Source of the DNA: Chloroflexota bacterium
GTDB lineage: Bacteria; Chloroflexota; Dehalococcoidia; JACPQD01
Assembly (NCBI GenBank): GCA_016190665.1
Contig: JACPQD010000044.1
Location: 1 to 64,000 of the forward strand
Direction: 5' to 3'
Length of the DNA: 64,000 bases
Part shown: positions 1 through 51,676 of the stretch, piece by piece
How positions within the stretch are numbered: position 1 is the first letter of the stretch
How the letters are laid out: every line of letters starts with the position of its first letter
The notes under the pieces: model-generated
What the model saw: the letters and a program-made list of their open reading frames with translations, nothing else
What the model was told of the DNA's origin: nothing
Databases searched by the model: none
Position numbers and translations under genes: made by a program

Positions 1-202
1 CTATCGGGCCTCCCCGTCCCTTGCCGGGTTACCCCACCACGCCGGCCTTGTATCCGGTTTCTGTTCGTCGAGTCCGAGTTTCGCCTCCGGCTTCCTTCAG
101 ATTCCGCCTCGCGGCGGACACCCTTGCCTTCGGCTGGCGGTTCCGGTCATCTCGGCCCGCAAAGGTCTTTCACCTCCTGGTTACATGACATGCCTGGCGC
201 AC
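1..202 (-). mobile_element. 5' part of a group II intron (domain I), truncated by window edge
   Basis: Read on the minus strand, this stretch begins with GTGCGCC at 202, matching the GUGYG 5' boundary of group II introns. It continues with blocks I recognise from bacterial group II ribozymes: an AACCAGGAGGTGAAAG segment, GGAACCGCCAGCCGAAGGC, and AATCTGAAGGAAGCCGGAGG. No reverse-transcriptase reading frame falls inside the window; it would lie beyond position 1. The 5' exon (bases 203 upward) holds a perfect 9-bp hairpin followed by TACCGGTTTT directly before the intron. That matches the habit of class C introns of inserting just after terminator-like stem-loops. Identification as a group II intron is firm; the class is inferred. 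Confidence 0.85.
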
Positions 203-212
203 AAAACCGGTA

Positions 213-234
213 GGACAGACTTTCCAGTCTGTCC
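213..234. repeat. Perfect 9-bp inverted repeat beside the intron insertion site
   Basis: GGACAGACT and AGTCTGTCC flank a TTCC loop. On the minus strand the hairpin is followed by ten bases ending in TTTT and then the intron boundary, so it reads like an intrinsic terminator used as an intron target. Confidence 0.7.
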
Positions 235-307
235 ACCCCTGGGTGTCCAGGTGTTGCCGGCAAGCAGCCAGGCCCGCCTGAAGCGGGAGAAAAGGAGGCG
301 CAAACCC

Positions 308-751
308 ATGAGCAGGACCTACACGAAGGTGGCCGTGGTTTCCCTCGTTCTTATCGCTCTTTTCCTGGTCCGTGTGGCGCCCTCGCTGGCCGACCTGAGC
401 TTTGAACAGGGATTGACCGATTGGACGGTCCAACTGACACACGATCCATGGCCCAACACGCAACATGAGCATACGGCGCAAGTAGTTACTGATCGTTCCT
501 CGCAGAGCCTGGGAGCAACGGTAGACGCGTTTCTCGCCTCCGGGGCGATCAGCAACGCCGGGGTTGCCTCTTCCCTCGTCAGTAAGATAGACGCCGCCCG
601 GGCAGCCATGGAACGAGCGAACATCAATGCGGCGCGCGGCCAGCTACAGGCCTTCATCAATCAGGTGGAAGCTCAGCGAGGGAAGTCCATCACCGGCGCC
701 GCCGCCGACCAACTCATCGCTGACGCGCAGTGGATAATAGCGCACCTGTAA
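308..751 (+). CDS. Secreted FIMAH-domain protein
   Basis: The protein has 147 residues. ATG 308 is chosen because AAAGGAGG precedes it and a typical signal peptide follows (charged start, hydrophobic residues 7-22, cleavage probably after SLA). After it comes a short segment starting [10 protein letters not shown], which resembles the first strand of secreted jelly-roll domains. The last ~75 residues match the FIMAH domain: [17 protein letters not shown], then [11 protein letters not shown] and a closing helix ending in AHL. FIMAH domains usually sit at the C-terminus of much longer extracellular enzymes. Here nothing large precedes it, so this is either a small adaptor-like secreted protein or the remnant of a larger gene after internal loss. 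No catalytic motif is visible. Confidence 0.75.
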
Positions 752-1010: not shown

Positions 1011-2729
1011 ATGTCGGAACCAGTGTATGAAGTCGCATGGCCGCTGGGGAAACTAGCCTATGAGACGGTATCATTGGCCAACCCGGCGGCGGATCTCAGC
1101 GGGAAGACGGTCTGCGAGCTCTGGGACCGGCTCTTCCGCGGCGACGAGATGTTCCAGGGGGTCCGCGAGGCGCTTTCCAGGAAGTATCCGGGTATCAAGT
1201 TCGTCGATTCCACCAATTTCGGCGATACCGTGGGGCTCAAGCGACAAGAGGTGATTGCCGCGCTCCCCGAGAAGCTGCGCGGCCTGGGGTGCAACGCGGT
1301 CATCTCCGCGGTGGGCGCCTGAGGCGCCTGCACGCCCGCCGTGGTGCGGGCGGCCGCCGCGGCCGAGAAGGCCGGCGTGCGCAGCGTGTCCATCGTCTCC
1401 GAAGGCTTCATCAGGCAGGCCCACGCCATTGCCCAGGCCCTCGGGCTGCAAGACCTGGCCATCGCCGAGTACCCCGGCGTTCCCATGGTCGACAGCAAAG
1501 AGGTCCTCCAGAAGAAGGTGTCGGAGACGCTCGTCAAGGAAGTCATCGCCGGGCTGACCAAGCAGGCTTCGATAGCAGTGAAACCGGACGAACCGGGGCG
1601 GAAGGATATCGTCTTCAGGGGCGCCCTGGATGAGGTCCACGAGTTCTTCTACAACAATATGTGGACGGAAGGGCTGCCCATTGTTCCGCCCACCGTCGAC
1701 CGGGTGGAGAAGTTCTTGCGCTTCACCGACCGTTCCCCGGATGAAATCATCGGCGTCCTGCTTCCCGAGAATCGCGAGGCCACCGTCTGGAACGTGGCGG
1801 TCAACGGCGTCATGGCCGGTTGCCGGCCGGAGTACATGCCGGTACTGCTGGCGATAGTCGACTGCATCTCCGCCCCGGAATGGCTGGTCGAGGATGCCGG
1901 CAGCACCCCCGGCTGGGAGCCGCTTATCATTCTGAACGGCCCCATCATGAAGCAACTGGACTTCAACTACGGCGCCTCGGTCATGCGCGTGGGCCGGCAA
2001 GCCAACACCTCCATCGGGCGCTTCCTGAGACTCTATCTGAGGAACGTGGCCGGGCTGCGCATACCGCCCGGCGCCACGGACAAGGGCAGCATCGCCTACA
2101 CCTTCAACGTCGTCCTCTGCGAGAACGAGGATGCCGTCGCCGAGATGGGCTGGCAGCCCTTTAGCGTCGACCGCGGCTTCAAGGCGGGCGACAACGTGGT
2201 CACCGTGCAAAGCTGCGTCAATATCAGCCCGCCGACCTACAGCGGCGGACACGCCGCGGAAGCCCACATGGAGACCCTCGCCGATCTCATCGGGCGGCGC
2301 TCCATGTCCTACTGGACCGCCGTCGCCGCGAACAACGGGCGGTCCTACCCCCTGTTCGTTCTCGGACCGAGCATCGCTGCCGTCATCGCCCGAGACGGCT
2401 GGTCGAAAGACAGGATTCGCCAGTACCTGTACGATAACGTGCGGGCTGAGGCGGGCTATCTGGAGAAGCTCTCCTGGCAGAGCGGCCAGACGGACTTCAG
2501 CTTCTGCAACTGCGTCGAAGACGGCAAAGTATCCCAGGACTTCTGCCAGTCCGACGACCCCAGGCGCATGATACCCGTCTTCCTGAAGCCCGAGTGGATC
2601 GAGATCGTCGTCAGCGGCGACCCCGGCCGGAACCAGAGCAAAGGGTACATGCAGAACCAGAAGCAGGGCGTGCCCGTCTCGCGCAAGATACAGTTGCCCG
2701 CGAACTGGGAACATACTGAACATGGATAA
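1011..2729 (+). CDS. UGSC-family selenoprotein (diverged paralogue, UGAC motif), TGA read as Sec104
   Basis: Reading through the TGA at 1320-1322 gives a 572-residue protein, started at ATG 1011 behind AAGGAGG. The N-terminal part (about 1-165) carries the family motif as U-G-A-C-T right after SAVGA. The C-terminal part (about 205-572) contains WTEGLPIVPPT and NGVMAGCRPEYMP. These align with the three paralogues at 18.3-23.8 kb, which have WTDGLPIVPPT and NAVMAGC at equivalent places. The frame is open on both sides of the TGA and conserved residues continue across it, so this is selenocysteine insertion and not a broken gene. The UGSC family is a known selenoprotein family of unknown biochemical role. 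The U-G-x-C arrangement resembles a redox selenenylsulfide motif, but function is inferred only. It stands alone between a terminator and the iron block. Confidence 0.85.
1320..1352 (+). promoter_or_regulatory. Selenocysteine codon with candidate bacterial SECIS hairpin
   Basis: UGA (1320-1322) is followed after 10 bases by a 7-bp GC stem (1333-1339 with 1346-1352) closing the loop CGTGGT. A G sits at the second loop position, 19 bases after the UGA. Bacterial SECIS elements are expected to have a G in the first two loop positions at about this distance. Confidence 0.6.
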
Positions 2730-2911: not shown

Positions 2912-3010
2912 ATAATATGGCTGGGGCAGGAACATAAGGAGAGCCAGGGCCTATCCCCTCTCTCCTCCTTTTGTGGGCAGTTTATTGCAAATGCGTCGCA
3001 TTAGCTTGAA

Positions 3011-3222
3011 TTGGGGCAGGTATTACATGTTTTCACGGGCGGGGGCCGCCGCGCCAGACGCCTCTCCGTCGGGGTCAGAGACGACCCCGATTATCGGGCC
3101 AAGAGGTGCAGGGCTGGCGCCAGGAAGGCGCCTCGGCGGCTCCTTCCGTCGAGGAAGCGGCCGCCACGAGGGGAGCCCCGCAGGCCCACACCGCTATCGG
3201 CACGGGCATGATACGGCGATGA
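3011..3222 (+). pseudogene. Possible frameshifted FeoA-like gene upstream of feoB
   Basis: The segment starts with MGQVLHVFTGGGRRARRLSV in one frame, which resembles the middle of FeoA. It ends in another frame with TAIGTGMIRR and a TGA overlapping the feoB start as ATGA, which resembles the usual FeoA C-terminus and a coupled junction. The stretch between has no convincing FeoA match in any frame, so it looks frameshifted or degraded. Alternatively it is an upstream extension of FeoB: that frame is open back to 2973, but the encoded residues are low-complexity. Low confidence. Confidence 0.3.
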
Positions 3223-5156
3223 CCCAAGAGGCAGCAACACGCCTTCTCCTGGTGGGCAACCCCAACGTGGGCAAGAGCGTCATATTTTCCTCCCTCAGCG
3301 GACAATACGTGACGGTATCCAACTACCCGGGGACCACCGTGGAGGTCACCAGAGGTTACGACGGCGGTGGCCGGGAGATCGTCGATACGCCCGGGGTCAA
3401 CAGCTTGATCCCCCGTTCCGAGGACGAGCGCGTGGCCCGCGATATCCTCCTCGAGGATGGAAAGCGCGTGATCGTCCAGGTGGCCGACGCCAAGAATCTC
3501 CGCCGCGCCCTCATGCTCAGCTCCCAACTGGCGGAAACAGGCCTTCCCTTCGTGCTCGATGTCAATATGCAGGACGAAGCCGGGCAGGCCGGCATCGCCG
3601 TGGACTCGGCCAGGCTTTCCGGCATCTTGGGCGTGCCTGTAGTGGAGACAGTCGCCGTGCAGCGCCAGGGGCTGCAGCAGCTCAGGGAAAGCCTCGACCG
3701 CGCGGCGCCCTCCCGCTTCGAGGTGAGGTATGACGCTCATATACGCCAGGCGGTCTCCAAGGTGGAAACCTTGCTCCCACCGCTTCCCGTCTCCCGCCGG
3801 GGCGCCGCTCTAATGCTCCTGGCCGGCGATGAAGACCTCAAGACCTGGCTGGAGCCGATAGCGGGCCCTGCTGTCCTCGCCGAAATCGAGGCGATCAAGC
3901 AGGACCTGCAAGCCAGGTACAGCGAGCCGGTAAGCTATATCATCAGCAAGCAGCGGGCTGAGGCCGTGGAGCGAGCGGTGAGAGAAGTGTCCCTCGCCAG
4001 GCGTGTCCGGGCCAGCTCCGTCAGCGAAAAGCTGGGCCGCTGGAGCATGCACCCGGTGTACGGTACACCGGTCCTTCTGTCCGTCCTGTTGTTCCTATAC
4101 TTCTTCGTCGGCAAGCTGGGGGCCGGCATATCGGTGGACTTCCTGGAGTCGGTGGTCTTCGAGGAATACCTCAGTCCCTGGGCCGCGCAATTCTTCGATC
4201 TGATCCCTATCCCCTTGCTGCAAGACCTCTTCGTGGGGAAATATGGGCTGATTACCGTGGGATTGACCTACGCGATCGCCATCGTGTTGCCCATCATGAC
4301 TTTCTTCTTCCTTGCCTTCGGCGTGCTGGAGGACACCGGCTACCTTCCCCGCCTGGCCGTGATGGCCAACAAGCTCTTCAAGGTGATGGGACTGAGCGGC
4401 AAGGCCGTGCTGCCCATGGTCCTGGGCCTGGGCTGCGCCACCATGGCCACCTTGACCACGCGCATCCTCGAATCGCGCCGGGAAAGGGTCATCGCCACGC
4501 TCCTGCTGGCGCTGGGCGTGCCTTGTTCGGCGCAACTGGCGGTCATCCTGGCCATGCTCAGCGCCCTCTCCGCCAAAGCAGCGGTTATCTTCGTCCTGGT
4601 GATCGCCTCCCAACTCCTGCTGGTGGGCTTCCTGGCCTCCCGGCTCATGCCGGGACAGCCCTCCGACTTCATAGTGGAGATACCGCCCTTCCGCATCCCT
4701 CATCTTTCGAATATCCTTATGAAGACCCGTTTTCGGGTAGAGTGGTTTCTGAAGGAGGCGGTGCCCCTCTTCCTGCTCGGGACTTTGATTCTCTTCACTA
4801 TCGACAAGATAGGCGTTTTGCTTGCGCTGCAGAGGTTGGCCAGCCCGGTGGTGGAAACCTGGCTCGGCCTGCCCGCGGACGCCACCGGCTCCTTCATCCT
4901 GGGCTTCCTGCGCCGCGACTACGGCGCTGCCGGCCTGTTCCGTCTGGCGGAGGAGGGGCTGATGGATGGTACCCAGACGCTCGTGAGCCTGGTGGTGATG
5001 ACTCTCTTCGTGCCCTGCATCGCCAACTTCTTCGTCATGATCAAGGAGCGCGGGCTGCGCGCCGCCATATACATCGTAGCTTTCATCTTCCCCTTCGCCG
5101 TTCTGGTGGGGGGAACTGTGAACCTTGTATTGAAGGGAGTAGGGTGGAGAGAGTAG
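3219..5156 (+). CDS. feoB: Ferrous iron transporter FeoB
   Basis: A 645-residue inner-membrane Fe(II) importer. The N-terminal GTPase shows G1 GNPNVGKS (13-20), G2 NYPGTT, G3 DTPG and G4 NMQD. The membrane part carries the two gate regions, including LGLGCATMATLTTR and GVPCSAQLA, plus FLRRDYGAAGL, all typical of FeoB. ATG 3219 is chosen because the preceding in-frame residues are low-complexity and because this ATG overlaps the stop of a possible FeoA remnant. It is the first clear gene of the iron block behind the 2857 promoter and Fur-like box. A high-affinity Fe(II) uptake role fits the FTR1 and ABC genes downstream. Confidence 0.93.
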   Translation: MTQEAATRLLLVGNPNVGKSVIFSSLSGQYVTVSNYPGTTVEVTRGYDGGGREIVDTPGVNSLIPRSEDERVARDILLEDGKRVIVQVADAKNLRRALMLSSQLAETGLPFVLDVNMQDEAGQAGIAVDSARLSGILGVPVVETVAVQRQGLQQLRESLDRAAPSRFEVRYDAHIRQAVSKVETLLPPLPVSRRGAALMLLAGDEDLKTWLEPIAGPAVLAEIEAIKQDLQARYSEPVSYIISKQRAEAVERAVREVSLARRVRASSVSEKLGRWSMHPVYGTPVLLSVLLFLYFFVGKLGAGISVDFLESVVFEEYLSPWAAQFFDLIPIPLLQDLFVGKYGLITVGLTYAIAIVLPIMTFFFLAFGVLEDTGYLPRLAVMANKLFKVMGLSGKAVLPMVLGLGCATMATLTTRILESRRERVIATLLLALGVPCSAQLAVILAMLSALSAKAAVIFVLVIASQLLLVGFLASRLMPGQPSDFIVEIPPFRIPHLSNILMKTRFRVEWFLKEAVPLFLLGTLILFTIDKIGVLLALQRLASPVVETWLGLPADATGSFILGFLRRDYGAAGLFRLAEEGLMDGTQTLVSLVVMTLFVPCIANFFVMIKERGLRAAIYIVAFIFPFAVLVGGTVNLVLKGVGWRE

Positions 5157-18344: not shown

Positions 18345-20036
18345 CTACCTGCGCGACCTTCTGAAGTCGTTCATCGACTTCACGGGCGTCCCATCCTTGA
18401 AGGCGATGGGCCGCGTAACGGCCCTCGTAGAGTCGAAGAAGCTGGCCACGAAGGACGCGTGGGACCCGCCGCCCCCCGCCACAAGAACCATGATTTCCTC
18501 CGGCGAGCTGGCCACCTTGTGTATGGGGTGTTCCTTCACCAGGGAATGCCCTTTCACCCGCTCGGAGATAATGTAGGGCGGATAGGGGGCGCGGGCATAC
18601 TTGAAGAGGTAATCACGGATAGACTTCTTGTCGAAGCCATCCCGCTTCAGCACCATCGCCTGCTCCGGTCCGAAAATGCACAGCGGCTGGCCACCGCCGG
18701 CTATGATGTTGTTAGAGCCGGAGGCGACCATGTTGCCCACCATGGTGCTCAGCAGCCCCTTGCCCGTGGTGCTCATCATGTCAATGATATTGTGCGGGGC
18801 CGCGCCCCCGAAGACGGTCACCGTGGAGACGTCCTCCGGGTAGCCCAGCTCCACATGCAGCGGCTCCCAGGGGTTCTCGTCCTCGTTCTCAGCGATGCAC
18901 AGCGAATACTTCCCCGCCTGGCCGAAGGTCGACCGGTCGTAGATGCCCGGCTCGCCCCCAGCGATGTTCAGCACCACCAGGCGCACTGCCCTGCCAATGG
19001 TGGCGTTGGCCCGCATCACGGAGCCAAAGAGCCCGTAGCCGTAGTTCACCTCCAGCTCCTTGACCACCGGCCCGTTAATTATCACGATAGGCGTCGCCGG
19101 GTTAGTCGTGGCGATGATGCCCGGCAGGTTGAACTCCGGCGCGGACATGGCCTCCACCGCCGCCAGCACCACAGGGAAGTACGCCGGCAGACAGCCCGCC
19201 ATCACCGCGTTGATGGCTATCTTCTCCACCGTCGCCTTGCCCCGGCGCGGCTTGAAGACGGCCACTACCTCCCGGGGATCGCGGTCGGTGTACTCCAGCA
19301 TCCGCGCCACTTCGGAACGGGTGGGCGGAACGATGGGCAGCCCGTCGGTCCAGCCCCTTCCGTAGAAGAGGCGATTGGCGGCCTCGATCTCAGCGCTTCC
19401 CTTGACCTCCACCCCCTCGGCGGCGAAGGCGGGCCGGCTGCGCACCGCGGCCTTAGGCTGCGGGTATCCCTTATCTCGGTATTCCTCATCCAGCTTGCCG
19501 GCTGGGGTGGTGAGCACGTGGACGATCTCCGGGAGGTTCCGCTCCGCGTGGACTTTGACCTGCTCGGGCGTGAAGCGCTTGGGCGGGTGCGGCTCGAGGA
19601 CCACCGGCAACTGAGGCAGGCCCAGGGCGGTCAGCTCCTCCCTGGCCAGTTGCCCAAACTCCTCGGAGGCCACATAGGCCGTGGGCACACCCCTCTTCTC
19701 CAGCTCGACCACATCGTGGACACTCCACGAAGTGCAGGAGCCTCAGTCGCCGTGGGCGTGGACCACGAAGGCGGCCTTCTTCGCCAGGTCGTCAAGCACT
19801 TCGGGAGGCGTCGGGCGCGCCGTGTCCGGCTTCTTATATCTCACCGCGCCGGCGAGGCCGTACTTGGCGCTGAGCACCTCCTCCACCCGCTCCAGATAGA
19901 CGTCGCTATTGATCTTGTTGTTATCAATAAAACAACCGATCTTGCCTTCGAGGGTGTCCAGGCGGGAAGCCAGGTTCAGCGCCACCGCATCGACCTCGCC
20001 TATCGGGTTGAGCAGGACATCTGTCTGTGTGGCCAT
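18345..20036 (-). CDS. UGSC-family selenoprotein (array gene 3), TGA read as Sec98
   Basis: 563 residues when TGA 19743-19745 is read as selenocysteine. The motif reads HAHGD-U-G-S-C-TSWSVHDVVELE, the family hallmark. The C-terminal part contains GWTDGLPIVPPT (about 229-240), NAVMAGC and a long conserved block with GGEPGIYDRSTFGQAG. A stop here would remove 83% of the protein, yet the downstream frame is open and closely matches two neighbouring paralogues. The start follows the previous gene's stop by two bases (AAGGAGG inside that gene), so translation is coupled. A redox role for the Sec/Cys pair is likely; the substrate is unknown. Confidence 0.92.
19714..19745 (-). promoter_or_regulatory. 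Sec codon and bacterial SECIS candidate
   Basis: TGA at 19745-19743, 12 bases, then the perfect 7-bp stem TCGTGGA/TCCACGA around the loop GTG. The loop G is 20 bases after the TGA. The same hairpin occurs in the two adjacent paralogues. Confidence 0.75.
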
Positions 20037-20038
20037 GG

Positions 20039-21730
20039 TTACTTCGCCCTCCTTCTCTTGAACTCCTCAACTGTCTTAACTAGGGCGCCATTCTTCAGGG
20101 CGAGGGGCCTCGAGGCGGCCCGCGTGGCGTCCAGGAAGCTGGCTACGAAGGACGAGTGGGAGCCTCCGCCGCCGGCCACCATAATCATGATCTCGTCTGG
20201 ACTCAGCGCCACCCGATGTATAGGGTGGTCCTGCCAGGTGAAGCACAGCTCCTCGTTCTCCGCGCTAATGGAATAGGCGGGATAAGGGGCGCGAGCGTAC
20301 TCGTAGATGTAGTCGCGGACCTTCTTCTTATCGAAGCCGTCGCGGGCCAGCACGGCCGCCTGCTCCGGACCGAGAATGACCAGCGGCTGGCCGCCGCCGG
20401 TGCAGATGTTGTTGCTGCCCGTGGCCACCAGGTTGCCGCAGATGGTGGAGAGGATACCCTCCGCTGTGGTGCTGGTCATGTCCAGGATGTTCTGCGGCGC
20501 CGCGCCGCCGAAGACGGTCACCACGGAGGCGTCCTTCGAGTATCCCAGCTCCACGTGCAGCGGCTCCCAGGGGTTCTCCGCTTCGTTCTCGGCGATACAC
20601 ATCGAGTACTTGCCCGCCTGGCCGAAAGTGGAGCGGTCGTAGATGCCCGGCTCCCCTCCCGCGATGTTCAGCACCACCAGGCGCACCGCACGACCTATCG
20701 TGGCGTTAGCCCGCATCACGGACCCGAAGAGCCCGTAGCCGCAGTTCACCTCGAGTTCCTTCACCACCGGCCCGTTCATGATGACCATGGGCGACGCGGG
20801 GTTCGTCGTGGCGATGATGCCCTGCAGGTTGAACCTGGGTTCACCCATGGCCTCCACGGCCGCCAGCACCACCGGGAAGTACTCCGGGACGCACCCCGCC
20901 ATCACGGCGTTGATGGCTATCTTCTCCACCGTCGCCTTGCCGCTCCGCGGCTTGAAAACGGCCACCTCCTCCTGGGGGTCGCGGTCGGTGTACGCCAGCA
21001 TTTTCTCCACCGCCGAGCGCGTCGGCGGGATGATAGGCAGGCCGTCGGTCCAACCCCGGCCGTAGAAGATGCGGTTTGCCGCCGTGGGGCTCCCCTTGAG
21101 CTCCAGCGACTCCGGTGCGAAGGCGGGCCGGCTGCGCACCGCCGCCTTGGGCTGAGGGTAGGCTTTCTTGCGATATTCCTCGACCAGCTCTTCGGCGGGC
21201 GTGGTCAGCACGTGCACCACCTCGGCCAGCGCCTTATCAGCGAAGGGGCGGAACTGGTCCGCCGTGAAGCGCTTGGGCGGGTGCGGCGACATGATGATAG
21301 GAAGCTGGGGCATGCCCAGCGCTTCCGAGTCGTCCCGGCCCAGTCGGGCGAACTCCTCGGAGGCGAAGTAGGCCGTGGGAATGCCCCTTTTCTCCAGCTC
21401 GACGACGTCGTGGACACTCCACGAGGTGCAGGAGCCTCAGTCGGCGTGGGCGTGGACGACAAAATCACACTTCGCCGCCATCTCATCGATAATCTCCTGA
21501 GGGGCAGGCACGCTAGAGAGAGGCTTCGTCCGCATGATGGCTTCCGCCATACCGTATTTCTCTTTGAGAAGCTCCAACAGGCGCGCCAGGAAGACATCGC
21601 TGTTCACCTTGTGGTTGTCGATGAAGCCACCCACCGTCCCCTCCAGGCTCTTCAGCCTAGGGGCCAGCTTCAGTTGCTGCACGTCGACTTCCCCGACGGG
21701 GTTGAGCAGAACGTCAGTTTCAGCTACCAT
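20039..21730 (-). CDS. UGSC-family selenoprotein (array gene 2), TGA read as Sec98
   Basis: 563 residues through TGA 21437-21439. GGAGG is five bases before ATG 21730. The N-terminal 97 residues begin MVAETDVLLNPVGEVD and end FVVHAHAD, then U-G-S-C. The rest is colinear with array gene 3 with no gaps in length, and similarity stays high after the TGA. The two genes arose by tandem duplication and are retained as full-length copies, which argues for separate substrates or dosage rather than decay. Between this gene and array gene 1 is a 386-base gap with three hairpins. Confidence 0.92.
21408..21439 (-). promoter_or_regulatory. Sec codon and bacterial SECIS candidate
   Basis: Same layout as at 19714-19745: TGA, 12 bases, TCGTGGA-GTG-TCCACGA. 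The base changes in this region relative to the other copies fall outside the stem. Confidence 0.75.
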
Positions 21731-22116: not shown

Positions 22117-23796
22117 TTAACTCAGGGTGAACTCCTGCACCGATTTCACGGGCGTCCCGTCCTTCAGGGCGATGGGGCGCGTGACCGCCCGCGTGCCATC
22201 GAAGAAGCTGGCGACGAAGGAGGAATGGGAGCCCCCGCCGCCGGCCACCATGATCATGATCTCCTCCGGGCTGCTGGCCACTGTGTGAACTGGGTGGTCC
22301 TGCCAGGTGAAGCATAGGTCCTCGTGATCGGCGGCGATAGTGTACGGCGGATAGGGGGCTCGTGCGTACTCGTAAATGTATTCCCGTATCTTCTGCTTGT
22401 TGAAGCCATCCCGCGCCAGCACGGCGGCTTGCTCCGGCCCGAAGATAATGAGCGGCTGGCCGGCGCCGGCGGCGATATTGTTGCTGCCGGAGGCCACCAT
22501 GTTGCCGCACATGGTGGACAGGATGCCCTCCCCTGTGGTGCTGGTCATATCCAGCACGTTCTGGGGCGCCGCGCCGCCAAAGACGGTCACTGTGGATACC
22601 TCTTTGCGGTAGCCACGCTCCACGTTCAAAGGCTCCCAGGGGTTCTCCGCCTCGTTCTCGGCCATGCAGAGGGAGTATTTGCCCGCCTGGCCGAAGGTGG
22701 AGCGGTCATAGATGCCCGGCTCACCGCCAGCTATGTTCAGCACCACCAGGCGGACCGCGCGGCCGATGGCGGCGTTGGCCCGCATCACCGAGCCAAACAG
22801 GCCATAGCCGCAGTTAACCTCCAGCTCCTTCACCACGGGCCCATTGATGATGAGCAGCGGCGAAGCGGGGTTGGTGGTGGCGATGATGCCCGCCAGATTG
22901 AACTCCGGCGCCGCCATCGCCTCCACCGCGGCCAGGACTACGGGGAAGTACTCCGGAATGCACCCGGCCATCACCGCGTTGATGGCTATTTTCTCCACCG
23001 TAGCCTTGCCGCGACGCGGCTTGAAGATCGCCATCACCTCATCAGGGTCCCGGTCAGTGTACTGGAGCATCCGGGCCACCGCCGGGCGAGTGGGTGGGAT
23101 GATGGGCAGGCCGTCCGTCCAGCCGCGTCCGTAGAAGAGACGGTTGGCGGCCTCGATGCTGCCGCGCACCTCCGGGCCCTCGGCGGCGAAGACGGGCCGG
23201 CTCCTGACGACGGCCTTGGGCCTGGGGTATTCCTTGTTCCGGTACTCCTTCGCCAACTGGTCGGCCGGCGTCGTCAAGACGTGGACGATCTCGGGGACGG
23301 CGGCATCGGCGAAGGTGCGGAACTGGTCGGCGGTGTAGCGCTTGGGGGGGTGAGGGACGACAATGATGGGCAGTTGTGGCATACCCAGCGCCAACAACTC
23401 CTCCTTGGCCAGGAGCGCGAACTCCTCCGAAGCAATGTAGGCAGTGGGGACGCCCTTTTGCTCCAGCTCGACGACATCGTGGACACTCCACGAGGTGCAG
23501 GAGCCTCAATCAGCGTGGGCATGCACCACAAAGGCGCTCTTCTCGACCTCAGCCATCACCGTCGGCGGCACGGGCTTGGAGGAGCTGGGCTTCCTGGTGA
23601 TGAAGGAGCTGCTCATGCCGTGTTTTTCGACCAGCAACTCGGCGACGCGCGCGATGAGGACATCGCTGTTCACCTTGTTGTTATCGATGAAGCCGCCGGC
23701 TGTGCCCTGAAGCGTTTTCAGCCGGGGGGCCAGCTTGAGTTCCGCCGCATCCACCTCTCCCACGGGGTTAAGCAGGACATCCGTCTCGGCAACCAC
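22117..23796 (-). CDS. UGSC-family selenoprotein (array gene 1), TGA read as Sec97
   Basis: 559 residues through TGA 23506-23508, starting at GTG 23796 behind GGAGGAGG. It has the same plan as the other array members: MVAETDVLLNPVGEVDAAEL, then VVHAHAD-U-GSCTSWSVHD, then GWTDGLPIIPPT and NAVMAGCIPEYFP. It is the promoter-proximal copy. In all three array proteins the residues next to Sec are identical (U-GSCTSWSVHDVVELE), while the first ~95 residues and the region around 110-160 vary more. That pattern fits a common redox centre with different binding surfaces. Selenocysteine insertion genes (selA, selB, selC, selD) are not in the window. Confidence 0.92.
23477..23508 (-). promoter_or_regulatory. 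Sec codon and bacterial SECIS candidate
   Basis: Third copy of TGA, 12 bases, TCGTGGA-GTG-TCCACGA. Confidence 0.75.
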
Positions 23797-37643: not shown

Positions 37644-39353
37644 CTACTTGGCGAGCCACAAAGCCTGAAAAGTGTTGTTGTTGAAATTGCCCAGCCCCGG
37701 CTCCCAGTTTCTGACTCTTGCCGAGGCGCCTCTTATCCCGGACTCCCAGGCAATGGATATGAGCGGCATTTCATCGAGGAGTTTCAGTTCGACCTCCCGG
37801 ACGATCTTCTTGCGCTCGGCGATGTCCAGCGTGCGCCTTTGCCTCCTGAAGAGGTCATCGACCTTGGGGTCGCTGTACCAACCCCGATTGCTGGGGCTGC
37901 CCGAAACATAATACCGCGCGATGTCATCAGGGTCGGTCTCGTTCAGGGAGTTACCTTGGGTAAATACTTCGAAGTCCTTCTTCAGAAGCCGTGCTTCCCA
38001 AACCGACTGCTCGAGCCTCACCATTTCAGCCTCTATGCCAACTTTCCTCAACTCATGCTGGGCGAACTCGGACTGCACATCATCAACCCCAGCCCTGACT
38101 ATCATCTGCGTCTTGAAGCCGTTGGCGAATCCGGCCTCGGCCAGGAGTTTCCTGGCCTCAGCGATATCGGCATCCTTGGGCTGGCGGTAGCCCGGCCGCT
38201 TTACCAGCTCAGGCTCGGGGATGGCCCACTCCGTCCCCGGAACCAGCGCACCACCCACCTTCCCGTAGCCCTGGCCTACCACCTTGATAGCCGCCTGGCG
38301 GTCGATGGCCAGGTTTGCCGCCTGGCGTACACGGAAATCGCTCCACGGCGCCTTCTCAAAGAAAGGAACGAGGCCGAAGTTACTCAGGGCGGGATACTCG
38401 TAGGCGACGGCCCCAGGCATCTCCCTCTTGACCGCCTCCGCCTCGGACGCGCTGAGATAAGTGCCTCTGCCAACAGCCGTCAAGTCAATCTGCCCCGTCC
38501 TGAAGGCGGCAAACCGGGAAGAGGCATCCCTGATGATATAGAACTGTATCCCGTCAACATAGGGCAAGCCCCGGACAAAGTAATCGGGGTTCTTGACCAA
38601 CTCGTAGAGGACGCCAGGCACGAAACGTTTGAACCTGAAGGGGCCAGTGCCAACAGAGTCATCTTCCTTTCTCATGTCGAACTTCGCTTCCATGATATGC
38701 CTGGGCTGAACCACCATTCGCCCCATGGCGGCGGTGCCCAGGAATACGGCGCTTGGATCCGTCAGGGTAATCTTCAGCGTGTTCTCGTCGGGGGTCTCTA
38801 TCTTGTCTACCCCCTCCAGAAGCGACTGCCTTGAAGGAGGGATCAACTTCGGCGGGGGGTTCTTTATCCGGTCGTAGGTATACCTGGCATCCTCAGCGGT
38901 GAAGGGCTTGCCATCGTGCCACTTCACACCTTTGCGGAAGTAGAAGGTGTAGACTTTGCCATCGGGGCTTATCACCCACTTCTCGGCCAGGTCAGCAATG
39001 ATGTTCTCATTCTTCCCCGGTGTGGGGTCGTGCTGGAGTATGCCGCTGTAGATACCCCCGACTATCGCAAAGAGGGCTATCGTAGGGCTGAGCATGGGGT
39101 CGAAGTGGGGCGGGTCCCCGCGTTGGGCGACTTTCAGTGTGCCACCGTACCTTGGCTCCGCCGTTGCCGGTTTGGGGCTGGGTGACGGCGCCGCCGCTGG
39201 CGCCGGAGGCTTAGAAACTGGAGTTTCCACCTTTGGCGCGGGCACGGCTGGCTTGCTGGTGGGCGTCGGGGATGCGGCAGGCACGCAGCTTGCCCATAGC
39301 AATCCCAGCATGGTCAAAGCGGTCGTCGGTAACAACATTTTCTCGGACTGCAC
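37644..39353 (-). CDS. Family-5 extracellular solute-binding lipoprotein (cluster A, distal)
   Basis: 569 residues from GTG 39353 behind AAGGAGG. Lipobox WASC (about residue 22), then a Pro/Ala/Thr/Lys-rich linker to ~65 and the SBP_bac_5 domain: YGGTLKVAQRGDPPHFDP, FYFRKGVKWHDGKPFTAEDARYTYDR and VRQAANLAIDRQA. It binds peptides, opines, nickel complexes or other small organic ligands for an ABC importer; no permease or ATPase genes are nearby. Lies 30 bases after the MmgE/PrpD gene. Confidence 0.9.
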   Translation of the reverse strand: MQSEKMLLPTTALTMLGLLWASCVPAASPTPTSKPAVPAPKVETPVSKPPAPAAAPSPSPKPATAEPRYGGTLKVAQRGDPPHFDPMLSPTIALFAIVGGIYSGILQHDPTPGKNENIIADLAEKWVISPDGKVYTFYFRKGVKWHDGKPFTAEDARYTYDRIKNPPPKLIPPSRQSLLEGVDKIETPDENTLKITLTDPSAVFLGTAAMGRMVVQPRHIMEAKFDMRKEDDSVGTGPFRFKRFVPGVLYELVKNPDYFVRGLPYVDGIQFYIIRDASSRFAAFRTGQIDLTAVGRGTYLSASEAEAVKREMPGAVAYEYPALSNFGLVPFFEKAPWSDFRVRQAANLAIDRQAAIKVVGQGYGKVGGALVPGTEWAIPEPELVKRPGYRQPKDADIAEARKLLAEAGFANGFKTQMIVRAGVDDVQSEFAQHELRKVGIEAEMVRLEQSVWEARLLKKDFEVFTQGNSLNETDPDDIARYYVSGSPSNRGWYSDPKVDDLFRRQRRTLDIAERKKIVREVELKLLDEMPLISIAWESGIRGASARVRNWEPGLGNFNNNTFQALWLAK

Positions 39354-40893: not shown

Positions 40894-42537
40894 TCAGCAA
40901 CCCTCATCCAACCACACATCCTGCCTTTTCTGGTTATTGTGATACCCAACCTGCTTTTCGGGGTAATAGCCCTTGATGCACTTCCAATAGGGAACGTCAA
41001 TGAGGCCGGTAAAGAGTATGGGCGGCGCGAGATCGAGTATCCTCCGTTGGATATTCAGGAGTATCTCCTTGCGCCTCGTCTCGTTCATCGTCTGGGACTG
41101 CTCCCGATACCAGTCGTCCACCTGCTTATCGCTGAAGCTGCTATAGTTGCGCCCCCCACCGGTTACGTACAGAGCCAGGAAAAGGTCGGGCTCATCGACA
41201 GCTTGCGCCGTAGTGTACGGGCTGATGGCGAAATCTCGGGCGAAATAGCGCTTCTCCATCGTTGCGGTGTCTACGGCCTTGATGGTGACGTTAATCCCAA
41301 TAGCCTTAAGCTGGTCCTGAACAAAGAGGGCCTGTTTTCTCCAGGTATCGCCTCCGATCATCGCCTCTGCCTCGAAGCCCTTCGGGTAGCCTGCCTCGGC
41401 CAACAGTGCCTTGGCCTTGTCGATGTCGGCGGCCGTGACCCCGCGGTAGCCCGGCCTCTTCATCAGTTCATCCTCAGGCAGCGCCCAGCGCCCCTTGGGC
41501 AAAGGTCCTACGATTTCCGCCTTCTTGTCCATCACATCGATTACTTTCTTGCGGTCCAGGCTCATGTTTATTGCCTGTCGGACACGCAAGTCGTTGAAAG
41601 GCGGGGCATTGAGATTAAGGTGGAGGACGTTCATGCTCAAAGCCGAGATACGAGCGACGGTGACCTTGTCTGCCAGCTCCTTATTCAACATCTCAGCCTG
41701 GGAGGCCGTTAGGTTGCTGGAGGAGACGAACATGCTCCGCACCTGGCCGGTGCGGAAGGCAGCCAGGCGGGCGGCCCCTTCCGGCATTATATAGTGAACT
41801 ATGCCGTCCAGGTACGGGCGGCCCGGGATGAAATAGTCGGGATTCTTGACGTGCTCGACGCTGACCCCCCGCTTGTACTCCTTCAGTTTGAAGGGGCCCG
41901 TGCCGAGGATGGTGTACCCCATCAGCTTCTTGTCCTTGAGGTGCTGCGGCGGGAGCATGGCAGCGTATACGAGCGCTATCCCGGCAATGAAGGAGGGCCG
42001 GGGGCCCTTGAGGTAGACCTCCACCGTGCTGGCGTCCGGCGCCTCGACGCGCTCTACCCCTTCCACGATCTCTTTCCGGATGATGACTACCCCCTGGGGC
42101 GGCTTCAGCCAGCGGTCGAAGTTGAACTTCACATCTTCCGCGGTGAAGGCCTTGCCGTCATGCCATTTGACGTTCTTGCGGAGAGTGAAGGTCACCTTCT
42201 TCCCATCGGCGCTGAACTGGTAGCGTTCCGCCAGGTCCGGGCTGATGCGCGTGCCGTCCGAAGGGTCGTACTGGACGAGGCTGCTATAGGCGGGCCCCGC
42301 CTGCTCGGCGGCTAGGTTGCGCGCCGTATTGTGAAGGTCAAAGGTATTCTCGTCCTGGAGGGCGGCGTGCTTGAGGATTCCGCCCTGTTTTGGCTGCTGA
42401 CCGGCCTTGGGCGTGCCTGCTGGCGCCGGCGATGCCTTCGGCGCCTGCTGGCCGCCCGCTGGCGCGCAGGCCGCAAGAAGAAGCGCCAGGGTTGCCAACA
42501 TCGCGACGACTCTGATACCTTTGCCTACTGATATCAT
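40894..42537 (-). CDS. Family-5 extracellular solute-binding lipoprotein (cluster A, proximal)
   Basis: 547 residues. Lipobox LAAC (about 24), an Ala/Pro/Gly/Lys linker, then GGILKHAALQDENTFDLH, FTLRKNVKWHDGKAFTAEDVKFNFDR and LRVRQAINMSLDRKKV. It closely resembles the binding protein at 48206-49870 in the second cluster, including the ending QDVWLDEGC, so the two clusters share a common ancestor. It is 82 bases before the MmgE/PrpD gene and probably opens the transcript. GGAGG lies just upstream of the start. Confidence 0.9.
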   Translation of the reverse strand: MISVGKGIRVVAMLATLALLLAACAPAGGQQAPKASPAPAGTPKAGQQPKQGGILKHAALQDENTFDLHNTARNLAAEQAGPAYSSLVQYDPSDGTRISPDLAERYQFSADGKKVTFTLRKNVKWHDGKAFTAEDVKFNFDRWLKPPQGVVIIRKEIVEGVERVEAPDASTVEVYLKGPRPSFIAGIALVYAAMLPPQHLKDKKLMGYTILGTGPFKLKEYKRGVSVEHVKNPDYFIPGRPYLDGIVHYIMPEGAARLAAFRTGQVRSMFVSSSNLTASQAEMLNKELADKVTVARISALSMNVLHLNLNAPPFNDLRVRQAINMSLDRKKVIDVMDKKAEIVGPLPKGRWALPEDELMKRPGYRGVTAADIDKAKALLAEAGYPKGFEAEAMIGGDTWRKQALFVQDQLKAIGINVTIKAVDTATMEKRYFARDFAISPYTTAQAVDEPDLFLALYVTGGGRNYSSFSDKQVDDWYREQSQTMNETRRKEILLNIQRRILDLAPPILFTGLIDVPYWKCIKGYYPEKQVGYHNNQKRQDVWLDEGC

Positions 42538-48215: not shown

Positions 48216-49870
48216 CCCTCGTCCAGCCAGACGTTCTGCCACTTGAGGTTGTTGTGCCCGCCTATCTGCTTCTCAGGGTAGTAGCCTTTGACGCATTTCC
48301 AGTAGGGCAGCTCGTAAATCTGATGATAGAGCACGGGTGTGGGCGCCTGGTCCAAGACCCTCCTCTGGATGTTGAGAACGATATCCTTGCGCTTCGCCGG
48401 ATCGAGGGTGAGCGACTGCTCCTGGTACCAGTCGTTCACCTGCTTGTCATTGAAGCCGCTGTAGTTCCGGCCGCCGCCGGCGATGTAGAAGGCCAGGAAG
48501 AGGTCCGGCTCGTCGATCGGCTGGGTGGGCAGATAGACGCTCATGGCGAAGTCGCCGGTGACGAAGCGCTTCTCCAGCGTGGCCACATCCACCACCTTGA
48601 TCGAGACGTCGATTCCGATGGCCCTGAGCTGGTCCTGGACGTAGACGGTCTGTTTCGTGTACTGGGTGGCTATCGCTGCCTCCACCGGGAGCCCCCTGGG
48701 GTGGCCGGCCTCGGCGAGCAAGGCTTTGGCCCGGTCGATATCGGCGGCGCTCACGCCGCGGTAGCCCGGGCGCTTCAAGAGCTCATCCTCGGGTACCGCC
48801 CAGGGCCCGCGGATCATCGGCCCGGCAAGCTCGCCTCGTCCTTCCACCACCTCCAGCATCTTCTTCCGGTCGATGGCCAGGTCCACCGCTTGCCTGACGC
48901 GCAGATCGCTAAAGGGCGGGCGGGTGACGTTCAGGTAGACGACGCCCAGCGCCAGTCCCGGGAAGCGGGCGACGTTCACTTTGTCCGCCACCTCCCTCTT
49001 GAGAAGGTCAGCGTGGGAAGGTGTCAGGTTGGCGGAGGAGATATGGTACGTCCGCACCTGCCCGGTGCGGAAGGCGGCGAACCGGGCCGCCTCGTCGGGG
49101 ATGAGATACTGGGTGATGCCCGCCAGATAGGGCCGGCCGGGGATGAAGTAGTCCTCATTCTTCACCAACTCGACGCTGCCGCCGCGGTTGTACCGCTTCA
49201 GCTTGAAGGGCCCGGTGCCCAGCACCGTATACTCCATGGTCTTGTGGTCCTTGAGGTACTGCGGCGGCATCATGACGGCAGCCGAGCCGATAGCCATGCC
49301 GGCGATGAAAAACGGGCTGGGATATTTGAGATAGACCTCCACCGTGCTGGCGTCCGGCGCCTCCGCCTTCTCGACGGGGACCACTATCTCCTTGCGGCTG
49401 ATGGCCACCCCCTCCGGCGGCTTCAGCCAGCGGTCGAAATTGAACTTCACGTCCGCCGCCGTCAGCGGCTTGCCGTCGTGCCAGCGCACGTTCTTGCGAA
49501 GGGTGAAGGTCACCTTCTTGGCATCGGGGCTCAACCGGTAGCTCTCGGCGAGGTCGGGGATGATCTTCCGGCCGTCCTCGGGGTCGTACTGGAGCAGCCC
49601 GCTATAGGCGGAAGCAATCTGGTCCGCCGGCAAACTGCGTCCTGTAACGTGGAGGTCGAAGGTGCCCTCGTCCCTGGCCCCGGCGTGTTTCAAGACCCCG
49701 CCGGACTTGGGCAGCTCGGCCGCGGCCTTGGGGGTGGCGGCTGGGGCGGCGGGTTTGGCGGTGGCCGGCCCGGCCGGCTGGGCCGTCGGGGCTGGGGCGG
49801 CCGCTGGGGCGCAGCTCGCCAACAGCGCCAGCACGGTTAGACCACCCAAGGGGATTAGAAGCGTTTTCAT
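48206..49870 (-). CDS. Family-5 solute-binding lipoprotein (cluster B, distal)
   Basis: 554 residues from ATG 49870 behind AGGAGG. Lipobox LASC (about 19-20), a long Ala/Pro linker, then GGVLKHAGARDEGTFDLH, FTLRKNVRWHDGKPLTAADVKFNFDR and LRVRQAVDLAIDRKKM. Very similar to the cluster A protein at 40894, including YGVLG/YTVLGTGPFKLK and the ending WQNVWLDEGCR. The 16-codon upstream extension is rejected because it lacks a ribosome binding site. Its partner transporter is not in the window. Confidence 0.9.
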   Translation of the reverse strand: MKTLLIPLGGLTVLALLASCAPAAAPAPTAQPAGPATAKPAAPAATPKAAAELPKSGGVLKHAGARDEGTFDLHVTGRSLPADQIASAYSGLLQYDPEDGRKIIPDLAESYRLSPDAKKVTFTLRKNVRWHDGKPLTAADVKFNFDRWLKPPEGVAISRKEIVVPVEKAEAPDASTVEVYLKYPSPFFIAGMAIGSAAVMMPPQYLKDHKTMEYTVLGTGPFKLKRYNRGGSVELVKNEDYFIPGRPYLAGITQYLIPDEAARFAAFRTGQVRTYHISSANLTPSHADLLKREVADKVNVARFPGLALGVVYLNVTRPPFSDLRVRQAVDLAIDRKKMLEVVEGRGELAGPMIRGPWAVPEDELLKRPGYRGVSAADIDRAKALLAEAGHPRGLPVEAAIATQYTKQTVYVQDQLRAIGIDVSIKVVDVATLEKRFVTGDFAMSVYLPTQPIDEPDLFLAFYIAGGGRNYSGFNDKQVNDWYQEQSLTLDPAKRKDIVLNIQRRVLDQAPTPVLYHQIYELPYWKCVKGYYPEKQIGGHNNLKWQNVWLDEGCR

Positions 49871-50002: not shown

Positions 50003-51676
50003 CTACTTCGCCAGCCACACGTGGGCGTATTTGTTATTGTTATAGACGCTGATGCCTGGCTTGAAGTCCTCCATCTCCGGCCAGCTAGCCATGATGCCAC
50101 GGGACCAGAAGAGGGGGGCGTTGGGGGCCAGCTCAAAGAGCCTCTCGCCCAACTCCAGAAGGATCTTCTTCCGCTCTGCCGGGTCCATGGCGCTAGCCTG
50201 CCTGGCGAACAAGTCATCGACGGTCTTATCTTCCAGACCCATCCATCGGGTGGACCCCTGGCTGTGATAATACCTCGTCATGTGGTCCGGGTCGTCGGTC
50301 CGCAGCCCGATGGGCTGCGCCACCGACTCGAAAACCAATTGGTCCAACAAAGGAAGGAATACCGAGCTCTCCCTGACAACTATCTCGAGCTCGATCCCTA
50401 TCTTGGCCAACTGGTCCTTGGAGAAGACGGCGATATCTTCGGTATAGTTGGCGCGGGCCAGTATCCTCGTCTTGAAGCCGTTGGGGAAGCCTGCTTCCGC
50501 CAGGAGCTTTTTCGCCTCGGCGATATCGGCGTCCTTCGGCTGCCGGTAGCCGGGCCGTTTGGCTAACTCCTCCCCGGGGATGGACCACCGGCTCGGGGCG
50601 AACTGGGCGCCAATCTCCCCCTCTCCATCGAGCAGGACCTTGATGGCGGCCTGCCGGTCAAGGGCCAGGTTCACCGCGCGGCGGAGGCGCACATCATTAA
50701 AGGGTGGCTTGTTGGTCACCATCTCGAACCAGCGGCTGGCCAGGGGATTGAAACGGTATACCTTGGCTGTGGGCATCTCCTTCTCGATAATGCGGGCCTG
50801 CGACGCCTTTATCCCCGCTGTGCTCACCAGCGGCCCCATGAACTTGATCTGCCCGGTGCGGAAGGTGGCCAGCCTGGTGCTATCGTCCTTTACGACATAG
50901 TATTTCACGCCGTCGAGATAGGGTCGGCCCGGGACGAAATAGTCGCGGTTCTTGACAACCTCGTAAGCGACCCCGGTGGCGTAGTCCTTGAATTTGAAGG
51001 GCCCGGTGCCCACGACATCGCTTTTCATGTGACCTTTGGCCTCGACGACATGCTTGGGGAAGACTACTATCTGGCCGCCCGCCAGGCCGTCAAGAAAAGC
51101 GGCATGCTGAAACTTGAGGGTCACCCTTACCGTATCCCGGTCCGGGGCAGCCACGCTCCCGATGGCGCGCAAGGTGTCTTTCATCGGGCTTCGGACCCCA
51201 GCCGGAGGATTGTACAATCTCTCCAGGCTGAATTTCACGTCCTCCGCGGTAAGCTCCCTCCCGTCGTGAAACTTCACCCCTTTGCGCAAGGAGAAGACGT
51301 AGGTCAAACCATCGGCGCTGACATCCCACTTCTGCGCCAGGTCCCCGACGATCTTCTCCGGGTCGTTGGGGTCGTAGTAGACGAGATTGTTGTAGCTCGA
51401 CTGCACCATATTCATCAGGAAGGTGTTCTCCTGGTGAACGTCGAGGCTCGGCACATCAGCGTACATGGAAGTCGTCAGGATACCGCCATATCGCGGTTGT
51501 CTGGGGGCAGCCTTAGGCGTTGGGCTTGGGGCAGCCGGCTTCGCTGCCGGAACCGCGGCGGGCGCCTCCGCCGGCCTGACCGTTGGCGCCGGGGCCGCCG
51601 CCGGGCCGCAGCTTGTTAACGGCAGCCCCAGGAAGGTCAGACAACTCGCGAACACGATAGATTTCCTATGAATCAC
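50003..51676 (-). CDS. Family-5 solute-binding lipoprotein (cluster B, proximal)
   Basis: 557 residues from GTG 51676, with GAGGAGG five to six bases upstream. Lipobox LTSC (about 23), an Ala/Pro linker, then YGGILTTSMYADVPSLDVHQ, FSLRKGVKFHDGRELTAEDVKFSLER and LRRAVNLALDRQAA. It groups with the cluster A distal protein at 37644: both end in an N-N-N-x-x-x-H/L-x-W-L-A-K motif. The four lipoproteins thus form two orthologous pairs, one of each type per cluster. It is the first gene of cluster B. Confidence 0.9.
   Translation of the reverse strand: MIHRKSIVFASCLTFLGLPLTSCGPAAAPAPTVRPAEAPAAVPAAKPAAPSPTPKAAPRQPRYGGILTTSMYADVPSLDVHQENTFLMNMVQSSYNNLVYYDPNDPEKIVGDLAQKWDVSADGLTYVFSLRKGVKFHDGRELTAEDVKFSLERLYNPPAGVRSPMKDTLRAIGSVAAPDRDTVRVTLKFQHAAFLDGLAGGQIVVFPKHVVEAKGHMKSDVVGTGPFKFKDYATGVAYEVVKNRDYFVPGRPYLDGVKYYVVKDDSTRLATFRTGQIKFMGPLVSTAGIKASQARIIEKEMPTAKVYRFNPLASRWFEMVTNKPPFNDVRLRRAVNLALDRQAAIKVLLDGEGEIGAQFAPSRWSIPGEELAKRPGYRQPKDADIAEAKKLLAEAGFPNGFKTRILARANYTEDIAVFSKDQLAKIGIELEIVVRESSVFLPLLDQLVFESVAQPIGLRTDDPDHMTRYYHSQGSTRWMGLEDKTVDDLFARQASAMDPAERKKILLELGERLFELAPNAPLFWSRGIMASWPEMEDFKPGISVYNNNKYAHVWLAK

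Follow-up and report, generated by a model that had tools for sequence, protein, structure and literature searches.

Near the start of the 64,000-nucleotide stretch of Chloroflexota DNA analysed here (the window), a long reading frame on the forward strand contains a single TGA codon. The locus raises the question of whether this codon is read as selenocysteine (Sec) and of whether the U-G-A-C motif that it would create sets the encoded protein apart from its relatives, as an earlier note made from the sequence had proposed.

The in-frame TGA of the window gene

With TGA read as Sec, positions 1011–2729 of the forward strand form one frame of 572 residues, running from an ATG at 1011 to a TAA at 2729, and a Shine–Dalgarno-like GGAGG (1001–1005, same strand) lies 5 nt 5' of the ATG. 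The sole in-frame TGA is codon 104 (1320–1322), in the context SAVGA-U-GAC, and its partner at +3 is Cys107 (1329–1331). Residues 8–183 (1032–1559) match the UGSC family PF24696 with 92.6 bits against a cut-off of 25, while the score against the narrower UGSC (seleno)protein equivalog NF041046 is 58.4 bits, which is below its cut-off of 125. The remainder of the frame is largely occupied by a second domain (domain 2; 1617–2711), recognized by alignment. An antisense ORF at 1071–2780 was considered and rejected as a real gene, since the family match sits on the sense strand, where the GC contents at codon positions 1, 2 and 3 are 0.62, 0.44 and 0.85.

We examined homologues at 80 loci from named genome records, which were the top 80 among 567 confirmed stretches. 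The codon aligned with codon 104 is TGA in 58 of these, TGC or TGT in 21 and GGC in one, so that the motif of Sec or Cys followed by Gly-x-Cys is present, with TGA or Cys, in 79 of the 80, as it is (as UGAC) in the window protein. Every locus with TGA or Cys at this position also has the +3 Cys, which the sole Gly locus lacks. Comparison with six close paralogues gives dN/dS values of 0.13–0.31 before the TGA and 0.10–0.25 after it, indicating that purifying selection acts on both sides. No homologue lacking the region downstream of the TGA was seen among these six paralogues, all of which keep 458–467 aligned codons there.

The genome encodes SelB (353 bits), SelA (568 bits) and SelD (386 bits). 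The selD gene (locus L121, C56:50475–51407) has one in-frame TGA of its own and SelD itself is therefore likely to be a selenoprotein. Searches of the 96.55%-complete assembly with the Rfam model, with a model built from the tRNA-Sec genes of ten class-mates and by pattern found no tRNA-Sec (up to 150 candidates scored per search). The best Rfam match, at 43.1 bits against a cut-off of 47, is a tRNA-Ser according to ARAGORN; the class-mate model returned only this same place, the pattern search gave nothing plausible, and none was found near selA and selB on contig C84 (12–72 kb). The assembly thus has no detected tRNA-Sec despite at least 159 Sec genes. A tRNA-Sec scores above the cut-off in ten of 12 UGSC-bearing class-mates, with the tca anticodon confirmed by ARAGORN, and the simplest reading is that a putative assembly gap accounts for the missing gene.

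We searched for SECIS-like hairpins, defined as having G at loop positions 1 and 2, a loop start 13–34 nt past the TGA and a folding energy of −6 kcal/mol or lower, and compared the counts with synonymous recodings, which for every group drew on the codon usage of this genome. Such hairpins follow the TGA in 107 of the 159 TGA genes of the genome (mean 30.3 and maximum 37 in 20 recodings) and in 54 of the 58 TGA homologues (recoded maximum 25), but in only one of the 21 Cys homologues (recoded mean 1.65). The plain folding z-score does not differ between the genome's TGA genes and the 21 Cys homologues (p = 0.21). In the window gene the candidate hairpin (1334–1351; stem GCCCGC/GCGGGC, loop CGTGGT) faces a stronger competing hairpin at 1338–1363 and is not significant by itself, as 10.7% of synonymous recodings are equally strong. 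The SECIS signal is therefore strong for the family, but not for the window copy alone.

Were the TGA a true stop, the locus would be a pseudogene or would comprise a pair of ORFs, with the GTG at 1341 as the start of the second. An ORF at 1341–2729 does exist under translation table 11, and the missing tRNA-Sec could be taken the same way, but the same TGA recurs across 159 copies, homologues have Cys in its place, dN/dS does not exceed 0.31 on either side, and SelA, SelB and a probable Sec-containing SelD are present. The TGA/Cys exchange and the two-sided dN/dS lead us to reject both forms of this explanation, to which we attach almost no weight. In our view, the gene very probably encodes a selenoprotein of the UGSC family: on the sequence evidence, codon 104 specifies Sec in a UGSC domain that is fused to an uncharacterised second domain. 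The earlier note had read the TGA in SAVGA-U-GAC in the same way, and the PF24696 match, the TGA/Cys exchange and the dN/dS values bear it out.

Size of the UGSC family and variation of its motif

At least 164 UGSC domains are present in the genome of 4,998,043 bases (5.0 Mb), and 159 of them carry UGx[C/U]. The total is a lower bound because it is made up of the 150 candidates scored, out of 208, in the genome search with PF24696 (150 of 150 matched) and 14 more from the flanking stretches that were fetched. The 159 include one weak 78-residue fragment and one ORF of 137 residues, both left out of the tree described below. Their motifs are UGSC (65), UGAC (33), UGGC (32), UGTC (22), UGNC (4), UGTU (1), UGDC (1) and UGLC (1). 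The UGTU paralogue (on locus L107; C101:30937–31443) has two in-frame TGA codons at its redox motif.

A mixture of strains or species in the bin could inflate this count, and the contamination estimate of 6.13% and the division of the assembly into 107 contigs would allow it. However, the 99 full-length fused copies have a median pairwise identity of 33% and a highest value of 90%, contigs of 350 and 359 kb hold 23 and 19 Sec copies, respectively, and the GC content of the 76 UGSC-bearing stretches is 0.603 with a standard deviation of 0.018. Given the low pairwise identity and the many copies per contig, we consider a strain mixture to be a very unlikely cause of the count.

A UGSC domain was found in 15 of 41 genomes sampled from the class, the next highest number being 46 copies in 2.7 Mb. 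It was found in 42 of 400 genomes sampled from the phylum, where up to eight candidates were scored per genome and the other genomes listed had at most 23 first-look candidates. The closest named Chloroflexota homologue among the best 80 of 567 loci (L141, labelled Dehalococcoidia) matches the window protein at 59% over residues 102–569. In the 12 genomes behind the named loci the top UGSC count is 58, in a genome labelled Betaproteobacteria, and smaller expansions of the family are seen in genomes with this label. Novosphingobium flavum has five members (three with TGA and two without a stop), Vineibacter terrae has four (all with TGA) and Nocardioides sediminis has one, without TGA; with family members in cultured strains, the reaction is open to test.

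The window itself holds exactly four of the 150 PF24696 matches listed. The other three are UGSC-motif selenoprotein genes arrayed on the reverse strand at 18345–20036, 20039–21730 and 22117–23796. The description of the window gene as a fourth UGSC protein is thus literally right for the window, in a genome with at least 164. The alignment with an array protein that the earlier note had described is seen in our alignment of these sequences (A1), as are the shared second-domain motifs. The divergence that it had noted is also real: in a domain tree calculated with FastTree from 162 domains after masking of the motif columns, the three array proteins lie in the other deep clade, across the midpoint-root split from the window protein.

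The same tree bears on the residue between Sec and Cys. The residue at +2 changes among S, A, G and T at least 41 times, and while FastTree is less reliable on long branches than slower methods, many of these changes fall between close relatives. Changes between A and not-A number at least 22; the U-G-A-C proteins are not monophyletic and so form no clade. A full-length tree of 100 proteins from this genome together with 77 named ones places the window protein within a clade of 31 proteins, all from this genome, with a support of 99 and a mixture of residues at +2 (22 S, five A and four G); betaproteobacterial UGAC homologues lie outside this clade. The top paralogue of the window protein by BLAST score (73%) carries UGSC. 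Among the best 80 of 567 loci, the closest UGAC homologues elsewhere (L137–L139 and L173) lie near selA, and two of them (L138 and L139) additionally near selB and a thioredoxin-reductase-like gene, whereas the window gene has a small FIMAH-domain ORF upstream (185–751, forward strand) and a feoB-type ferrous iron transporter gene directly downstream (2973–5156, forward strand; 388.8 bits).

Two proposals of the earlier note are not supported by these results. A gene nested in a young clade of 31 members from its own genome is not an older paralogue, and a residue that changes at least 41 times, and varies between S, A and G within that clade, does not mark the S-to-A difference as a distinguishing trait that could tune the redox centre. 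Nor does the window gene share the neighbours of its four closest UGAC homologues elsewhere, and both trees lead us to reject the U-G-A-C proteins as a special subfamily. The S/A position between Sec and Cys is very probably not special; the S, A, G or T found there is a tolerated, often-changing residue and no lineage marker. The motif oddity of the window gene is thus ordinary and it is the size of the family that is remarkable. Selenocysteine is costly and is usually reserved for a few enzymes. That at least 159 Sec codons are committed to a single uncharacterised family points to a major role for selenium in anaerobic catabolism, for which there is no known reaction.

Sec and Cys vary as a unit. 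Both Sec and the +3 Cys or Sec are present in 159 of the 164 domains and both are absent from the other five, and Cys never replaces Sec. Because the UGx[C/U] pattern served to pick the 159, what is informative is the lack of both in the remaining five. Three of these five (on loci L057, L079, L107, L078 and L044; C20_14091, C62_25427, C101_25294, C58_15015 and C11_30172, respectively) group in one clade of the domain tree and four are fused to domain 2. Judged by their sequences, the five are possible pseudo-enzymes.

Domain structure, neighbours and proposed function

An AlphaFold2 (AF2) model of the window protein (pLDDT 85.9, pTM 0.88) has an alpha/beta domain of alternating strands and helices at residues 33–183, in which Sec104 opens the helix that follows the strand at 96–102. 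The modelled UGSC domain matches Rossmann-like folds in general (best Z 9.8) and no specific family. In their accessible parts, the GOS selenoproteome paper describes UGSC as likely thioredoxin-like (PMC2398784) and a 2026 review groups it with thioredoxin-like folds (PMC13188914); our model, judged by its strand–helix alternation and its fold matches, does not look so.

Domain 2 was modelled with a pLDDT of 80.3 and a pTM of 0.86. It has no Pfam or NCBIfam family match in any of 33 sequences, and a PDB sequence search gave nothing significant (a helicase at E 0.037), as was the case for a profile of the whole protein (FtsZ at E 0.021). Foldseek returned no match at E 0.001 for the domain 2 model. 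A class I fumarase fold (7xky_A, E 0.076; Z 4.1–5.3 over 177–204 residues with an r.m.s.d. of 4.9–6.0) and an encapsulin fold (Z 6.0 over 79 residues) were both considered and set aside as not significant. Cys271, in the MAGCxPEY motif (1821–1823), is invariant in the 33 sequences (alignment A2), and a few A1 sequences have Gly or Ser at this position. Of the 64 single-domain UGSC genes, 37 have a separate domain-2 gene no more than 300 bp away on the same strand, compared with three of the 100 fused genes; some of the single genes are fused genes truncated by the ends of contigs or stretches. From this arrangement, the fused and split genes appear as two forms of one two-part protein. As paralogues lacking Sec and Cys still contain domain 2, the domain has some role independent of both. 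Standalone ORFs opening with the domain-2 motif also occur in other genomes, at L141 (3902–4933, DGLPVIPPT), with no Pfam or NCBIfam match, and at L142 (12256–13173, DGFPVVPPT).

Of the 164 UGSC genes, 77 have an SBP_bac_5-like gene on the same strand at a distance of at most 300 bp. Such a neighbour is absent from the window gene; SBP_bac_5 receptor genes occur further along the window at 37890–39002, 41149–42246, 48473–49567 and 50258–51355 (reverse strand), and its edge (1–118, reverse strand) matches domains D1–D4 of a group II intron (RF02001, 90.3 bits). In a pool of 87 neighbours, comprising 25 of the 77 SBP ORFs and 62 others, the 25 families listed of 61 include SBP_bac_5 (24), MmgE/PrpD (5), PFL-like (4) and CoA_transf_3 (3). 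Two of the four PFL-like neighbours have a glycine-radical domain, and this group points to anaerobic chemistry. At least 133 SBP_bac_5 matches were scored among 368 first-look candidates in the genome, and with such genes so common part of their adjacency to UGSC genes is expected.

In the best 80 of 567 named loci, selA-like ORFs occur at five (L137, L138, L139, L163 and L173; family confirmed on two) and selB-like ORFs at four (L138, L139, L163 and L172; family confirmed on one). Thioredoxin-reductase-like ORFs are found at 11 of the 80, with CxxC in all 11 translations and the family confirmed for three, below the equivalog cut-off; none appears in the UGSC stretches fetched from this genome. 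A cluster of 54 receptor ORFs from 20 named loci is presumably TctC/Bug-like.

The explanation that best covers these observations as a whole, and which we hold to be slightly better than an even proposition, is that the family comprises Sec/Cys redox enzymes that act on imported organic compounds and have radiated by duplication. Sec104 and Cys107 would form a redox pair (a selenenylsulfide when oxidized) in the Rossmann-like domain, and the substrate would be bound by domain 2 or, for split genes, by the separate subunit. The pair would pass two electrons to the imported compound, and a flavoprotein of the thioredoxin-reductase type, or some other thiol system, would then restore the reduced pair. 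Substrates would differ between paralogues, their class being set by the paired receptor; such differences would explain why the family radiated next to so many distinct SBP_bac_5 uptake receptors. The central element, a redox enzyme working on imported compounds, is drawn from sequence and is offered tentatively.

Among several readings of the Sec/Cys pair this is the likeliest, at a little under an even chance, and two others need to be weighed against it. The pair might instead bind a metal or metalloid, or serve as a redox sensor that regulates domain 2, and would then not be the catalytic electron donor. The retention of domain 2 in four fused paralogues without Sec and Cys and the feoB gene adjoining the window gene would suit such a role, and the accessible part of the 2026 review discusses Sec proteins of the SAO system, encoded beside ABC transport genes, as metal-binding (PMC13188914). 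The sampled neighbours are, however, mostly enzymes of organic compounds and SBP_bac_5 receptors (25 listed families), and thioredoxin-reductase-like genes recur in other lineages, so that we regard a metal-binding or sensing role as unlikely. A mechanism like that of glycine or proline reductase, in which Sec attacks a substrate carbon, cleaves a C–N or C–X bond and leaves the product bound to Se, would fit the anaerobic context, the glycyl-radical-type neighbours and the UxxC motif shared with PrdB (PMC2398784, accessible part). It appears less likely still, as the window protein has no Pfam match to GRDB (PF07355) at E 1 and no Grd or Prd partners appear among the pooled neighbours, for which 25 of 61 families were listed.

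Comparison with known systems

The window protein shares its domain, its UxxC motif and the exchange of TGA with Cys with the UGSC family as described (PF24696; NF041046; PMC2398784, accessible part). It differs from the NF041046 equivalog in scoring below the cut-off of 125, in its fused second domain and in belonging to a genome-scale set of paralogues. The UGSC/Unknown_1 fusion (PMC2398784, Figure S1A, accessible part) likewise joins UGSC to an uncharacterised conserved domain, and by this description domain 2 is likely to be Unknown_1. In the accessible part of the paper, the account of that fusion includes neither the partner genes of split forms nor the radiation seen here. PrdB, a UxxC selenoprotein (PMC2398784, accessible part), and GrdB offer a possible functional analogy in reductive metabolism, from which the window protein is set apart by the missing PF07355 match.

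Our search of the literature on selenoproteomes and selenoproteins in Chloroflexota, SAR202 and Dehalococcoidia found no such expansion by title or abstract start, which does not establish its absence from print; the relevant papers that use 'UGSC' concern selenoproteomes, and several others are unrelated uses of the letters. It is possible, if somewhat short of probable, that the selenoproteome of this genome, dominated by a single family, is larger than any known from another organism, and that a two-component Sec/Cys reductase, in which a UGSC domain and an undescribed substrate domain are fused or split, with more than 150 paralogues, many of them paired with an uptake receptor of their own, provides a modular system for the uptake and reduction of organic compounds. 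The largest bacterial selenoproteomes given in the accessible part of the 2026 review are those of the Olavius algarvensis Delta 1 symbiont, with 57, and a Methylomirabilota MAG, with 63 (PMC13188914). The present genome likewise contains many TGA-coded genes, but here one family alone supplies at least 159 candidates, above the 63 of the larger of the two.
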